DNA of 64,000 nt from Intrasporangiaceae bacterium URHB0013 (GTDB taxonomy: Bacteria > Actinomycetota > Actinomycetes > Actinomycetales > Dermatophilaceae). Of the stretch, positions 46,506 to 52,706 are shown one piece after another. Position 1 is the stretch's first letter. Each line of letters opens with the position of its first letter. The stretch lies in the NCBI GenBank assembly GCA_000620545.1, contig JIBA01000016.1, forward strand, positions 310,001 to 374,000, written 5' to 3'. Both the position numbers and the translations under genes were made by a program. The notes beneath the pieces are model-generated. The model ran no database searches. It saw only the letters and a list, made by a program, of their open reading frames with translations, and was not told where the DNA came from.

Positions 46506-47618
46506 CTACTGGGAGACGGCGCGGCGGGCAAAGAGTGCCCGGTCGTCGAGCTCCTCGGCCTCTTCGGCGAACTCGGGGGTGTCGAAGACGTCGGCCGGGA
46601 TGCCGGTCTCGGTGTAGCGCGGCTCGGCCCTGGCCTTGAGCGCATAGGTCGGGCGCGGCACGGGCACCGGGCTCCAGCTGCCCTCGGCCGGCTGCTCGGG
46701 CACGGCCGCGGGGACCTCACCCCTGATCGGCGCCTGGACGTCGAAGACGCCGGGCTCGACGTGGTGCGCAACGACGACCTGCGCCTCGCGGGAGACCGCC
46801 ACGACCGTCGACGGCTCCGCGGCGGCGGCGCTGTGGATGACCTGCGTGTCCTCGCTCGAGAGGGCGGGCACGTGGTGGACGGCGGCACGGGTCTCGTCGT
46901 GGCGACGACCGCGCCGACGGCCCCGGACCTGCCCCTTGGCATCGGAATGGGTGCGCAGGCGGTCGGCCTGGGCCTCGGCCCGCAGCCACACGAGCACGGC
47001 GCCGATGGTGAGGACGGCGAAGGGTACCGAGATCCACAGGAGCACCCCGGTGACCGTCAGCACGACGGAGACGGGTAGCCAGGCGATCGCGACGAGGAGC
47101 AGCGCCGCACGGAGGCGGCGTCGTGCCAGCGGGACCCGCGCGGCCGGCGGTCCCGGGGGACGCCCTTGGCGCCCGGCTCCGTGGCTCGACCGGCGGGCTG
47201 ACTCGGGCATGCGGTCCACCTCGGCGGCGTAGGGGGCGATGGCGTGGTCGGTGTGTCTGGGTCCTGACGGGGTGGACCGGATGCCCGAGGCGGCGAGCGG
47301 GGTGGCGGTGACGCGCCCGTCGGCGCGGCGGGCGACGAGGGGTGAGGGGTGGCGCGACGTGCCGGCGGGAACGGCCCGCTTCACGTCCACGGCGGGCCGA
47401 GCCGGGTTCGCGGGCGTGACGGCATACGAGTGGGGCCGCAGCGTGCTCAGCGCGGCGGTCGGAAGGGCTGGTCGCTTCTCGAGGACGCGCATGGCCTCGG
47501 AGAAGCCCTCGACCGACCGGGACGCGGCCGCGTCCTCGCGGCGGCGAGCCCAGTGCTGCACGAGATAGGCAGCCCAGATCGCCACGATGACGACGAAGAT
47601 CAGGCTGCTGACTGGCAC
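46506..47618 (-). CDS. Division-associated membrane protein, GlpR/SepX type
   Basis: A 370-aa protein starting (GTG) VPVSSLIFVVIVAIWAAYLVQHWARRREDAAASRSVEGFSEAMRVLEKR, the hallmark N-terminal membrane segment and following helix of actinobacterial SepX/GlpR. A second pair of membrane segments, LLLVAIAWLPVSVVLTVTG and VPFAVLTIGAVLVWL, is near residues 190-235. The C-terminal half is low-complexity. In corynebacteria GlpR is the membrane receptor for Glp, a gephyrin/MoeA-like division protein; in Streptomyces SepX stabilises the divisome. It lies in the same locus as a Glp/MoeA domain here, supporting this call. Confidence 0.8.
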   Translation of the reverse strand: MPVSSLIFVVIVAIWAAYLVQHWARRREDAAASRSVEGFSEAMRVLEKRPALPTAALSTLRPHSYAVTPANPARPAVDVKRAVPAGTSRHPSPLVARRADGRVTATPLAASGIRSTPSGPRHTDHAIAPYAAEVDRMPESARRSSHGAGRQGRPPGPPAARVPLARRRLRAALLLVAIAWLPVSVVLTVTGVLLWISVPFAVLTIGAVLVWLRAEAQADRLRTHSDAKGQVRGRRRGRRHDETRAAVHHVPALSSEDTQVIHSAAAAEPSTVVAVSREAQVVVAHHVEPGVFDVQAPIRGEVPAAVPEQPAEGSWSPVPVPRPTYALKARAEPRYTETGIPADVFDTPEFAEEAEELDDRALFARRAVSQ

Positions 47619-47688
47619 GTGACCCACGGTAGGACGCGGTTCGATGACGGCCTCGCACATTCGAGGCGTGTCGCGCAAGAGGCTGGTG

Positions 47689-48357
47689 TTACACCTGTGA
47701 CAGGCGAGCCATCAGCGTCGTACCGGCGAGGTCCTCGCTCGTGACGGCAAAGGACCGGTGGTCACGCCAGGCGCCGTCGATGTGCAGGAACCGCTCGCGC
47801 ACTCCCTCGTCGCGCAGACCGAGGCGCTCGACGACGCGCAGAGACGGAACGTTGTCGAGCCGGATGTTGACCTCGACGCGGTGCAGGCCACCGGCGCCGA
47901 GCGCGTGGTCGATGGCCAGCGCCAGCGCGCGGGTCGCGATGCCGCGCCCGGTGACGGACTCGTCGAGCCAGTAGCCGGCCGCCCCCGACTGCTGGGCGGC
48001 ACGGACGATCCCGAACAGGTGGACCTGACCGACGATGCGTCCGCCGACCTCGACGACCCAGGGCAAGGCCCGGTCGGCACGCGCCTCGACGTCGAGGTCA
48101 CGGACGAACTGCCGGAACGAGACCGGTGCCCGCGCGGGAGATCCCGGCGGCAGGGTGGGCTCCCACGGCTGGACGTATGCCGCGTTGTCGCGCCGCACCC
48201 GCTGCCAGTCCCGCTCGTCGTCCACGCGAAGGGGACGCAGCACGAGGGGAGGCTCGGCGGAGGCGTCACGGAGGACGACCGGCCAGCGCGCCTGGCCGTC
48301 ACGGTGCGGACGCCACGGCATCCTCACCGCCGGCCGCCGAGCGAGGTCCGGGCGCAC
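47689..48357 (-). CDS. GNAT acetyltransferase, RimJ-like
   Basis: A 222-aa GNAT protein of the RimJ/RimL group. GQVHLFGIVRAAQQSGAAGYWLDESVTGRGIATRALALAIDHAL holds the acetyl-CoA loop (GRGIA), and HRVEVNIRLDNVPSLRVVERLGLRDEG gives the neighbouring N-terminal-alanine acetyltransferase pattern. The GTG start has GGGGGAC upstream. The rimJ-like gene between Glp and GlpR is a conserved feature of this locus in actinobacteria. The target protein is unknown. Confidence 0.88.
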   Translation of the reverse strand: MRPDLARRPAVRMPWRPHRDGQARWPVVLRDASAEPPLVLRPLRVDDERDWQRVRRDNAAYVQPWEPTLPPGSPARAPVSFRQFVRDLDVEARADRALPWVVEVGGRIVGQVHLFGIVRAAQQSGAAGYWLDESVTGRGIATRALALAIDHALGAGGLHRVEVNIRLDNVPSLRVVERLGLRDEGVRERFLHIDGAWRDHRSFAVTSEDLAGTTLMARLSQV

Positions 48358-48396: not shown

Positions 48397-48891
48397 TCAG
48401 TGGTCACTGCCCGGCACCTGGTCGAGGGCGTGGCCCAGGACCGGCTCGAGGACGTCGAGCGCGTCGGCAACACCTCCGCGGGAGCCTGGGAGGTTGGCCA
48501 CGAGGGTGCGGCCCGCCAGACCGACGAGCCCACGCGAGAGCATCGCCGTCGGCACGCCCTTGGCGACACCTGCGGCGCGGATCGCCTCGGCCACGCCCGG
48601 CACGAGCCGGTCGAGCAGTGGTGCGGTCTGCTCCGGGGTCACGTCGGTGGGCGTGAGTCCGGTGCCGCCGGTGGTCAGCACGAGCTCGGGTGCGCCCGCG
48701 AGCGCCTCACGCAGGGCCAGGCCGAACGCGTCGCCGTCCGGCACGACGACCGGGTCGCCCACCTCGAAGCCCCACGCGCGGAGCCGCTCCACGACGACGG
48801 GGCCCGACGTGTCGCCGTAGACGCCGGCTGCGGCGCGGGTGGAGGCGGTGACGACGACGGCCCGACGGCCCGTGCCGAGACCTTCACTCAT
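48397..48891 (-). CDS. Molybdopterin adenylyltransferase-like protein (MoaB/Mog)
   Basis: A 164-aa MoaB/Mog-fold protein with RAAVVVTASTRAAAGVYGDTSGPVVVERL, VLTTGGTGLTPTDVTPEQTAPLLDRLVPG and LPGSRGGVADALDVL. The TGGTG loop binds molybdopterin in Mog, which activates it with ATP before metal insertion. It overlaps moaC by 8 bases. I prefer Mog/MoaB over MoeA because of the short, single-domain size. Confidence 0.88.
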   Translation of the reverse strand: MSEGLGTGRRAVVVTASTRAAAGVYGDTSGPVVVERLRAWGFEVGDPVVVPDGDAFGLALREALAGAPELVLTTGGTGLTPTDVTPEQTAPLLDRLVPGVAEAIRAAGVAKGVPTAMLSRGLVGLAGRTLVANLPGSRGGVADALDVLEPVLGHALDQVPGSDH

Positions 48892-49390
48892 GCCAGTCGC
48901 CCGATCGGCCGCCCGACTTCGCGGTGACGCGCACGTCGGTGATGCGGCCGTGCCTGTCGACGGCCTTGACCATGTCGATGAGCGTCAGGGCCGCGACCGA
49001 GACGGCTGTCAACGCCTCCATCTCGATGCCCGTGCGGTCGGCCGTACGCACGGTCGCGGTGATGTCGGCGCCGTCGTCGGCCACGACGACCTCGACCTCC
49101 ACCCCGTGGACCGCGATCGGGTGCGCGAGCGGGATGAGCTCGGGGGTGCGCTTGACCGCCTGGATGCCGGCGATCCGGGCCACGGCCAGGGCGTCGCCCT
49201 TGGGGACCCGGCCCGTCCGCAGGGCTGAGACGGCCTGGGCGCTGAGCAGGACTCGTCCGGCGGCGCTCGCCTCCCTGGCGGTGACGGCCTTGGCCGACAC
49301 GTCGACCATGTGGGCGGTGCCGTCGGCGCGCACGTGCGTCAACGTGGGCGCCTCGGCGTCCGAGGGCGGCTCGGGCGGGCGGTCGGTCAT
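48884..49390 (-). CDS. moaC: Cyclic pyranopterin monophosphate synthase
   Basis: A 168-aa protein acting with MoaA to turn GTP derivatives into cPMP, the first molybdopterin intermediate. LTHVRADGTAHMVDVSAKAVTAREASAAGRV, LIPLAHPIAVHGVEV and TGIEMEALTAVSVAALTLIDMVKA are all MoaC motifs, including the catalytic His and Lys positions. It overlaps the fused GalU-MoeA gene by one base (TGATG), so these genes are translated together. Confidence 0.93.
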   Translation of the reverse strand: MTDRPPEPPSDAEAPTLTHVRADGTAHMVDVSAKAVTAREASAAGRVLLSAQAVSALRTGRVPKGDALAVARIAGIQAVKRTPELIPLAHPIAVHGVEVEVVVADDGADITATVRTADRTGIEMEALTAVSVAALTLIDMVKAVDRHGRITDVRVTAKSGGRSGDWHE

Positions 49391-52032
49391 CAGGCCTCCT
49401 TGTCGAGGACGAGCACGTCGACGACCTCGCCGGCGACGAGCTCGGTGACGTCCTCGGGGACGACGAAGAGCGCGTTCGCCCGGGACAGGTCGGCGACGAA
49501 GTGCGACCCCTGCCCTGCGACCGGCACGGCGACGAGCGTGCCCTCGGTGGAGCGCGACACGACGGCACGCCCGAACTGACGCCGACCGCCGAACGACTCG
49601 ACACCGGAGATGAGGGTGGCGGGTCGGGCCCGGCGCTTCTCCGGGGTCAGGCGCATGAGGCGGCGGAGAGCCGGGCGCACGAAGACCTCGAACGACACGA
49701 AGGAGGAGACGGGGTTGCCGGGCAGGGCGAAGAGCGGCACGTGCCTGCCGCCCGGTCCGGTGAGCAGGCCGTAGCCCTGGGGCTTTCCGGGTTGCATCGC
49801 CACCTTGACGAAGTCGATGCCCTTGTCGTGCAGGGCGCTCTTGACGACGTCGTAGGCCCCCATGGACACGCCGCCGCTCGTGATGACGACATCGGCCCCG
49901 GCGACGACCTCGTGGAGCACGGCGAGCAGCTCCTCGTCGGTGTCACCGACGGCCGCCCGGATCTCCGCCGACGCGCCCGCGCCGACCGCGGCAGCCCAGA
50001 GCATGGACGAGTTCGAGTCGTGGATCTGACCGTGCTGCAAGGGTTTTCCGGGCTGGACGAGCTCGGCACCGGTGGACAGCACCACGACGTGCGGCCGCCG
50101 GTGGACCTCGACCTCGGCGTGACCGCAGGCGGCGAGCAGGGCGATCGTGCGCGGTCCGACGACCTCGCCGGCGGGGACGACGACCGCGCCCGACGTGACG
50201 TCCTCGCCCTTCGGACGGATGTAGCGGCCGCGCGTCACGGTCGTGCGGCACTCGACCTCACCTGTCGCGGCGCCGTCCGTGTCCTCGACGGCGATGATCG
50301 CGTCGGCGCCCTGGGGGATCGGGGCACCCGTCATGATCCGGGCCGCCTCCCCCACGCCGACGGAGAAGGTGGGGTCGGCTCCCGCGGCCACCTCACCGAC
50401 GATGCGCAACCGCACCGGGGAGTCGCCGGCGTCCGCCAGGGACTCGGCGCGCACGGCATACCCGTCCATGGCGGAGTTGTCGAAGCGCGGGAGGTCGACC
50501 TTGGCGCGGACGTCCCGCGCCACGACGAGACCGAGGGCCTCGGTGAGCGGCGTCCCCCGGGTCGGCGACGGCTCGAGCGTCGACAGGATGGCCCTGAGGT
50601 GCTCGTCGACCGTGCGCACGTCGCCGGGCGTCGTGAGCGGCGCGGACGTCGGCGTGGGCAGCTCGCCGAGCACGGCATCGTCGAGGACACGGCGGTAACC
50701 GTCGATGAGGACCTCACCGACGCAGCGGACGTTGCGGCCGAAGACCGGGTCGCCGATGACGCGCAGGCTGGTGCAGTCGCGCATCGAGGGAACTCCCTTG
50801 GGGAACCGCTTCTCGAAGCCGGACACGAAGCGGTAGGCCGAGTCGAGGTCGACGAAGGGCTCGGGACCGTCGACGGCGGCGACGACGTGATAGCCCTCGT
50901 CGAGGGAGAAGAAGTCGGAGCGGATGACCAGCAGGTCGTTCGTCGTCTTGACCGGACGGAAGCGCGTGCGCGGCACGAGGATCGCCTCGGAGCCCTCGAA
51001 CACCTCGATCGCGGTGCCCATCGCCGACTCGAGCTGGATGACGTCCGGGGAGCTCGGGTCGGCGGGGTCGACGTTCTTGTGGTTGACGATGATGGGCAGG
51101 CCGAGAACGCCCTGCTTCGCCGTCATGCGCTCGCGCAGCACCTCGAGGTTGATCCACACGTTGTTGGCGTTGAAGGTGCTGTGACGCTTGATGTCGCGGA
51201 AGTAGCGCTCCTCCCCCTCGGCCACCATCGCCGTGTCGCGCAGCACGATCCGGCCGTCGGACCGGCGCACCGCGAAGTGGCCACCCTTGCGGTCGCTCTT
51301 GGTCCGCCGGCACACCTCGGCGACGTAGGGCAGCCCACGCTCGACCATCCAGGCCGCGACATCGGGGTCGCAGGTGGCGCCGAGGTTGTCGGAGTTGGAG
51401 AGGAACGCGTAGCGGATCCCCTTCTCGAGCAGCGCGTCGAGCACGCCGGACGTCACGAGCGAGACGTAGATGTCGCCGTGGCCGGGCGGGCACCACTCCA
51501 GCTCGGGGTCCGCGGGCCACTGCACGGGCATGAGGTCGTCGGGCCGCAGCTTCGGCTCGGCGTTCTGGATGAAGTCGAGCGGCAGTCCCTCGACCGGCAG
51601 GTCAGGGTACTTCGCGAGGATCTTGAGCGACTCCTCCGACGTGCGGAACGAGTTCATCAGCACGAGGGGCAGCTCGACCCCCCACTGCTCGCGCAGGGCC
51701 AGCACCTGCAGGGCGATGATGTCGAGGAAGGTCAGCCCGTCCTTGACCTCGAGCGCCGACTTCGCGCCCGTCATGCCCATGCCGGTGCCGAGACCGCCGT
51801 TGAGCTTGATGACCGCGGTCTGGGACAGGGCCTCGCGAGCCTCCTCGTCGGAGACCCGGACCTCGCGCAGGGTCTGCACCTCGCCGAGCGGCTCGATGGA
51901 CTCCTCGGAGATCGTGCCCAGCGCTCCGGCCTGCAGCTGCTCGTAGTAGTGCTCGAACACCCTGATCGCCTCGGGACCGAGGCCCCGGTCGCGCATCAGT
52001 GCGACGGACGCGTGGAGCCCCTGGTCACTCAT
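49390..52032 (-). CDS. UDP-glucose pyrophosphorylase fused to MoeA/Glp domain
   Basis: One open frame of 880 residues. Residues 1-about 470 are a UGP2-type UTP-glucose-1-phosphate uridylyltransferase (LNGGLGTGMGMTGAKSALEVKDGLTFLD, later NANNVWINLEVLRERM and IVNHKNVDP). Residues 472-880 are a MoeA/gephyrin-like domain (DNSAMDGYAV, SGGVSMGAYDVVKSAL, LPGNPVSSFV). In other actinobacteria galU and glp (moeA) are separate neighbours. Here V472, coded GTG at 50619 and starting VRTVDEHLRAIL, looks like the former MoeA start. No stop intervenes. The protein could link UDP-glucose supply to division or molybdopterin work. Starting at ATG 52032 (MSDQGLHASVALMRDRG). Confidence 0.85.
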   Translation of the reverse strand: MSDQGLHASVALMRDRGLGPEAIRVFEHYYEQLQAGALGTISEESIEPLGEVQTLREVRVSDEEAREALSQTAVIKLNGGLGTGMGMTGAKSALEVKDGLTFLDIIALQVLALREQWGVELPLVLMNSFRTSEESLKILAKYPDLPVEGLPLDFIQNAEPKLRPDDLMPVQWPADPELEWCPPGHGDIYVSLVTSGVLDALLEKGIRYAFLSNSDNLGATCDPDVAAWMVERGLPYVAEVCRRTKSDRKGGHFAVRRSDGRIVLRDTAMVAEGEERYFRDIKRHSTFNANNVWINLEVLRERMTAKQGVLGLPIIVNHKNVDPADPSSPDVIQLESAMGTAIEVFEGSEAILVPRTRFRPVKTTNDLLVIRSDFFSLDEGYHVVAAVDGPEPFVDLDSAYRFVSGFEKRFPKGVPSMRDCTSLRVIGDPVFGRNVRCVGEVLIDGYRRVLDDAVLGELPTPTSAPLTTPGDVRTVDEHLRAILSTLEPSPTRGTPLTEALGLVVARDVRAKVDLPRFDNSAMDGYAVRAESLADAGDSPVRLRIVGEVAAGADPTFSVGVGEAARIMTGAPIPQGADAIIAVEDTDGAATGEVECRTTVTRGRYIRPKGEDVTSGAVVVPAGEVVGPRTIALLAACGHAEVEVHRRPHVVVLSTGAELVQPGKPLQHGQIHDSNSSMLWAAAVGAGASAEIRAAVGDTDEELLAVLHEVVAGADVVITSGGVSMGAYDVVKSALHDKGIDFVKVAMQPGKPQGYGLLTGPGGRHVPLFALPGNPVSSFVSFEVFVRPALRRLMRLTPEKRRARPATLISGVESFGGRRQFGRAVVSRSTEGTLVAVPVAGQGSHFVADLSRANALFVVPEDVTELVAGEVVDVLVLDKEA

Positions 52033-52091
52033 GGGCATCACCTTACGATGGGCTGCATGTGCGGCACCCGGGTGAGCGGAATGTGCTCGTG

Positions 52092-52706
52092 GTGAGCGCA
52101 CCGGGCAAGCATGACCTGCGTCACGCGGCACGGGGCCGTCGCCGCGACATCGCGTCGCGGCTCGGCCCCGCTGAGCGCGAGACCGCCGCGGCGGCGATCG
52201 CGGAGGCCGTGCTGCGGTTCGTGCCGGACCCCTCCCGGGTGGCCGTCTACGAGTCCCTGCCGGACGAGCCACCGACCGGCCGCCTCGTCGAGGCCCTCCT
52301 CGCGGCGGGGCACGAGGTCATCGTGCCCGTCGTGCTCGACGACTTCTCCCTGGAGTGGAGGGGTGCGGTGCCCGGCACGGCGGGCGACGCCTCCACCGTG
52401 CGGAGGCCACGTCATGGCGGCCACGCAGCGTCGACCGACGAGCGGCAGGGTTGGCTGGGCACCGACGCCCTCGCGACGTGCGACCTCGTCGTGACACCGG
52501 GCCTGTCGGTCGACCCGCACGGCACGCGGCTCGGCCAGGGTGGCGGCTGCTACGACCGCGCGCTGCTGCACCGCGACCCGGCCGCGCCGGTCGTGACGCT
52601 GCTCCACGAGGGCGAGCAGAGCGACACTGACCTGCCTGCCGACCCCCACGACCTGCCGGTCGACGGCTACGTCACGACGACCGGGCGCGTGGTGCGCCTG
52701 CGCTGA
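52092..52706 (+). CDS. 5-formyltetrahydrofolate cyclo-ligase family protein
   Basis: A 204-aa protein. Start is GTG 52092 (VSAPGKHDLRHAARGRRRDIASRL); an earlier in-frame GTG (52083) is possible. The basic N terminus, RVAVYESLPDEPPTGRLVEALLAAGHEVIVP and DLVVTPGLSVDPHGTRLGQGGGCYDRALL fit MTHFS, with the G-x-R-LGQGGGCYDR motif near residue 155. It converts 5-formyl-THF to methenyl-THF with ATP. It is divergent from the galU-moeA fusion; galU-cyclo-ligase neighbours are common in actinobacteria. Confidence 0.92.
   Translation: MSAPGKHDLRHAARGRRRDIASRLGPAERETAAAAIAEAVLRFVPDPSRVAVYESLPDEPPTGRLVEALLAAGHEVIVPVVLDDFSLEWRGAVPGTAGDASTVRRPRHGGHAASTDERQGWLGTDALATCDLVVTPGLSVDPHGTRLGQGGGCYDRALLHRDPAAPVVTLLHEGEQSDTDLPADPHDLPVDGYVTTTGRVVRLR

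Follow-up and report, generated by a model that had tools for sequence, protein, structure and literature searches.

A UDP-glucose pyrophosphorylase fused to a MoeA/Glp-type protein in a Terrabacter-like actinomycete and its relatives

Why a single reading frame should join UDP-glucose synthesis to a MoeA-type protein, and whether this second partner is a molybdenum enzyme or a scaffold of the division machinery, is the question raised by one locus of Intrasporangiaceae bacterium URHB0013. The window, i.e. the whole stretch of DNA analysed (64,000 nucleotides of contig JIBA01000016.1), comes from a host that would belong to Terrabacter, judging from 94% identity to named loci. The locus contains the following features (positions in the window):

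46506 to 47678, minus strand: SepX/GlpR-like protein, start codon uncertain (NF050099 91.2 bits, cut-off 150)
47689 to 48357, minus strand: GNAT acetyltransferase (PF13302 69.1 bits, cut-off 25.4)
48397 to 48891, minus strand: Mog/MoaB-type protein (TIGR00177 90.5 bits, cut-off 85.35)
48884 to 49390, minus strand: MoaC (TIGR00581 188 bits, cut-off 141.5)
49390 to 52032, minus strand: fused UDP-glucose pyrophosphorylase/MoeA (Glp-locus) gene, 880 codons, ATG start (MSDQGL), TGA stop
49405 to 50616, minus strand: MoeA/Glp domain, residues 473-876 (Pfam MoeA_N, MoCF_biosynth and MoeA_C above cut-off)
50617 to 50619, minus strand: GTG of V472, probable former MoeA start (alignment with Intrasporangium oryzae)
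50617 to 50667, minus strand: linker, residues 456-472 (pLDDT below 50 at 460-469)
50725 to 51960, minus strand: UDPGP domain (PF01704), residues 25-436 (Pfam 413.4 bits, cut-off 22)
51999 to 52706, plus strand: 5-formyltetrahydrofolate cyclo-ligase, divergent (TIGR02727 92.5 bits, cut-off 84.9), its true start probably inside the listed frame

The fused frame runs from the ATG at 52032 to the TGA at 49392-49390 on the minus strand and, as an earlier note on this DNA had proposed, carries both genes in 880 codons without a stop between them; the plus strand of 49390-52032 is likewise open. The PF01704 match in the first half covers profile positions 3-411 of 413, and MoeA_N (155.2 bits), MoCF_biosynth (94.8 bits) and MoeA_C (52.8 bits) follow in this order over residues 474-876. 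The structure predicted from 94 rows has a mean pLDDT of 93.0 and a pTM of 0.59, with residues 460-469 as the sole run below 50 (an earlier model from 15 close sequences, with a pLDDT of 42.5, was set aside). It thus predicts two confident, complete domains on a disordered or flexible tether, their mutual placement not being fixed by the model. The tether measures 12-24 residues across 15 fused proteins. Relative to the window, dN/dS in 14 pairs (Nei-Gojobori, own script) was 0.08-0.33 for the first domain, 0.11-0.28 for the second and 0.11-2.2 for the linker, where the linker value rests on few sites and dS is probably too low in GC-rich DNA; purifying selection acts on both domains and hardly on the linker.

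The first half had been named GalU. That the frame joins UDP-glucose synthesis to a MoeA/Glp-type protein still stands, but the family was wrong: PF01704 (UDPGP) comprises the eukaryote-type UDP-glucose pyrophosphorylases, and the N-terminal half had no NCBIfam match at E 0.001, the GalU model TIGR01099 (cut-off 326.8 bits) included. The nearest solved structures point the same way: the first 11 rows of a Foldseek search were Trypanosoma brucei and Leishmania major enzymes of this activity, followed by plant Cnx1E and gephyrin E, with the Glp of Corynebacterium glutamicum in row 17. With the T. brucei (3gue) and L. major (2oef) enzymes the fused protein shares family, fold and the stretches KLNGGLGTGMG, PPGHGD, DNLGAT and PVKT; unlike them, it has a C-terminal MoeA domain. 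The fused gene is the one PF01704 match in the whole genome. Five PF00483 paralogues occur, three of which pass named cut-offs (RmlA, GlgC and GlmU) and two none of those shown; no GalU was found among the five, the best TIGR01099 score shown being 71.6 bits versus 326.8. The fused protein is therefore the only candidate UDP-glucose pyrophosphorylase found in this genome.

For the second half, 13 positions of E. coli MoeA taken as functional were compared, five of which (D59, D142, K279, R350 and S371) are sites of E. coli mutants named in structure records. Eleven of the 13 are identical in all 16 fused rows; position 275 is K in 14 rows and R in two, and position 279 is Q throughout. The Q counts against an active insertase, K279Q being one of the crystallised E. 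coli mutants, but it is also the commonest letter in other groups (26 of 32, 21 of 38 and 22 of 33 rows). The fused protein thus shares its fold and 11 of 13 functional positions with MoeA, gephyrin E and Cnx1E, while differing from E. coli MoeA in its Q at 279 and in its place behind a UDP-glucose pyrophosphorylase. As regards the use of molybdenum, the genome holds one MoaA match and three matches to molybdoenzyme large subunits (MoCoBD_1). Its other MoeA-type protein (L002, contig C9, 387980-389146) has S, T and A at positions 298, 350 and 371, which makes the fused copy the better candidate for a working insertase. This divergent L002 lies about 8 kb from the large-subunit match at C9:378932. 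In a different genome (L052, G077), a separate MoeA matches the profile in two pieces about 30 residues apart, an apparent insertion.

Following these results, the gene probably encodes a bifunctional UDP-glucose pyrophosphorylase/molybdenum insertase that arose when a stop codon was bypassed. The part up to about residue 455 is predicted to convert UTP and glucose-1-phosphate to UDP-glucose, and residues 473-880 to act as a MoeA-type molybdenum insertase. Both halves would be active and act mostly on their own; the fusion would chiefly fix equal amounts of both enzymes, and MoeA dimerisation would pair two pyrophosphorylase units.

Downstream, the ATG of moaC shares one base with the stop of the fused gene, mog follows, and a SepX/GlpR-like gene closes the operon, in agreement with the earlier observation that MoaC and Mog lie between the fusion and a presumed GlpR/SepX (which, at 91.2 bits, stays below its cut-off and has no Pfam match). 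Gene order was compared in 28 chosen loci. The eight named fused loci share the order penicillin acylase, divergent cyclo-ligase, fused gene, moaC, mog, GNAT and GlpR-like, and in L164, probably from Streptomyces, GalU takes the first slot of the same block. L189 (probably mycobacterial) and L190 (probably corynebacterial, matching 8BVE at 523.7 bits) have GalU, Glp and GNAT with neither moaC nor mog. The window's GlpR-like protein fails as a query at these two loci and at several others, and is therefore a weak probe. Across loci L147-L206, the slot before MoeA/Glp holds either a GalU (PF00483 type) or a UDPGP (PF01704 type) protein with the rest of the block kept, so that two enzyme families for the same reaction have replaced each other in place; eight of ten GalU slot proteins pass TIGR01099 and two score about 245 versus 326.8 bits.

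In the pyrophosphorylase-adjacent rows examined, the presence of moaC and mog tracks the state of the active site. At least 2.5 kb of downstream sequence was available for 75 of 119 MoeA/Glp rows, 48 of which adjoin a GalU or UDPGP gene (the searches used proteins of the window as queries and may overlook a distant MoaC or Mog). In the 38 of these 48 with moaC or mog downstream, D228 is present in 38 of 38 rows and the 11 tested positions are intact in 33 of 38 (D or E allowed at 259). In the ten rows with neither gene (L173, L177, L182, L183, L184, L186, L188, L189, L190 and L135), at least one position is lost in every case and D228 in eight; as seven of these ten fall in one clade, this amounts to approximately four independent losses. 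These counts include no fused row, as the fused copies that were kept had short flanks. The link breaks down in the other 27 rows, which have no pyrophosphorylase gene as neighbour: 7 of the 11 that lack moaC and mog are intact, whereas 4 of the 16 that have them are not.

The main competing reading takes the second half for a divisome scaffold of the Glp type, which would bind FtsZ and the GlpR-like protein and thereby place UDP-glucose synthesis at the division site. The gene block is indeed common to the glp loci of other Actinomycetes, a GlpR-like gene (91.2 bits) is present, and the best NCBIfam match is Glp: NF045515 scores 465.2/468.4 bits on the window against a cut-off of 475, for which reason the Glp naming is borderline, and beats MoeA_actino by bits (468.4 versus 457.6, both below cut-off). 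Three other fused proteins score 476.4 (L045), 466.9 and 470.6, only the first of which passes. The same model gives 567 bits for the probable Streptomyces locus and 562 for Nocardioides marmorisolisilvae, both of which retain the enzyme's residues at 228 and 259. Relative to E. coli MoeA, C. glutamicum Glp is changed at 228, 259, 275 and 279; the fused rows keep the first two, and their operon retains moaC and mog, all of which speaks against a scaffold.

According to PMC10522489, C. glutamicum Glp has an FtsZ-binding loop and two Pro-rich hinges, and contacts FtsZ through V338, L343, L360, M361, Y369, L370 and F414. The residues of the window protein at these seven positions are R, I, V, S, L, V and V, and none of the seven is kept by identity in the four fused rows shown. 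This is not decisive: among the rows shown, all seven are kept only in L186 and L189, with six in L190 and four in some GalU-adjacent rows (L146 and L197), and the loop region is gappy and hard to align, which makes single placements unsure. The window has EPSP at the first hinge, and RRPH at the second versus PRPR in C. glutamicum. The fused clade may stand apart from the Corynebacteriales-type Glp rows, a placement with a support of 88 in a quick tree but 35/75 in a careful one (84 of the 119 rows, after 10 that were long or odd and 25 near-copies had been removed by hand). On the side of the scaffold, an AU test on the MoeA/Glp tree does not reject a single clade of pyrophosphorylase-adjacent rows (p 0.483, 59 versus 9 rows). 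In short, the fused protein resembles the C. glutamicum protein (8BVE/8BVF) in its gene block, MoeA fold and borderline Glp-model score, and differs in the absence of the FtsZ-contact residues, its retained active-site positions and the adjoining moaC and mog. The division-linked scaffold of the earlier note is not borne out by these residues, and we regard this reading as unlikely next to the bifunctional enzyme.

The junction can be followed in Intrasporangium oryzae, which is unfused, is 83% identical in the first part and has the junction TGA C GTG. The GTG of V472 (50619-50617) aligns with the probable GTG start of its separate second gene, and since the matching spot in the fused genes is read in the frame of that second gene, V472 is very probably the old MoeA start. 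The window thus keeps the probable old start as a GTG, as had been noticed before. Whether it still initiates a separate, second MoeA beside the fused protein is a different matter. Of 15 fused genes, eight have GTG at this codon (the window among them), three CTG, two GTC, one CTC and one ATC; seven thus have neither ATG, GTG nor TTG, which rules out a start conserved throughout the clade. In the window, the 24 bases upstream contain no Shine-Dalgarno-like stretch (by eye), and the two loci with G-rich bits upstream (L045 and L049) have GTC and CTC as codons. Despite the retained GTGs and their alignment with the probable I. oryzae start, an internal start yielding a second product is improbable, slightly more so than the scaffold, and a separate MoeA made in this way across the clade is unlikely on the codons observed.

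We know of no direct metabolic link between the two reactions, so that the bifunctional reading comes without a positive reason for the join. UDP-glucose is linked to division control (PMC3723540) through OpgH in E. coli and UgtP in Bacillus subtilis, both glucosyltransferases that use UDP-glucose. The fused protein has in common with these only the idea of tying UDP-glucose to division: it would make UDP-glucose where OpgH and UgtP use it. A link in their manner has no support from the residues compared. It could still be imagined that the fused protein is an independent coupling of UDP-glucose to division, brought to the septum by the GlpR-like membrane protein through a lineage-specific, non-corynebacterial contact, but we consider this a long shot.

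The fused frame is open (residues 1 to at least 878, without a stop) in 16 of 186 genomes of the host family, namely in eight of the nine genomes of the window's genus and in eight genomes of five other genera. A 17th, the ninth congener (74% complete), matches residues 407-880 from a contig edge and thereby spans the junction, which brings the fusion to 17 genomes of six genera, including all nine of the window's own. The earlier note had allowed for a base error hiding a stop between residues 455 and 472. With the same stop-free frame in so many genomes, a wrong base or a misassembly can be dismissed as practically inconceivable. Among 80 named loci the fusion occurs in eight (four Terrabacter, Terracoccus sp. 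273MFTsu3.1, Humibacillus xanthopallidus, Humibacillus sp. DSM 29435 and Intrasporangium calvum PheN6). Wider draws gave two cases among 396 genomes of the order and a single one each among 394 genomes of the class and 396 of the phylum, both single cases being the window itself. All these searches used a UDPGP-type query, with which a very diverged fusion could be missed and a GalU-MoeA fusion is invisible. Literature searches found no paper on this fusion.

A second fusion in Nocardioidaceae (a family so judged by its named members) was considered and rejected, as several loci covering residues 1-879 proved to have a stop between the genes, and all 34 matches at E 1e-200 or better, obtained in 34 of 341 genomes, contain at least one stop, six of them two. 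The UDPGP and MoeA genes of this family (L143, L211-L215 and others) often lie in one frame, with stops between or within them.

A single change explains the fused state on a tree built from both parts, with 16 fused rows among 57 and a branch support of 74; by parsimony, the fusion would have arisen once. The two genes were presumably neighbours in a block that is widespread in Actinomycetes, with an arrangement like that of I. oryzae as the ancestral one. In one ancestor of Terrabacter, Humibacillus, I. calvum and their kin, the stop of the first gene would have been bypassed and translation would have read on in the frame of the second, the old start becoming a linker residue.

The bifunctional reading bears on a live question: which of the actinobacterial proteins called "Glp" serve as division scaffolds, and which have remained molybdenum enzymes. 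The NCBI "divisome protein Glp" model passes loci that retain enzyme positions (L164 and L079), and loss of moaC and mog beside pyrophosphorylase genes may help to sort enzyme-type from scaffold-type Glp. In addition, the gene is clearly a fusion and I. oryzae provides a closely related unfused state, so that the locus is well suited to the study of how neighbouring genes merge.
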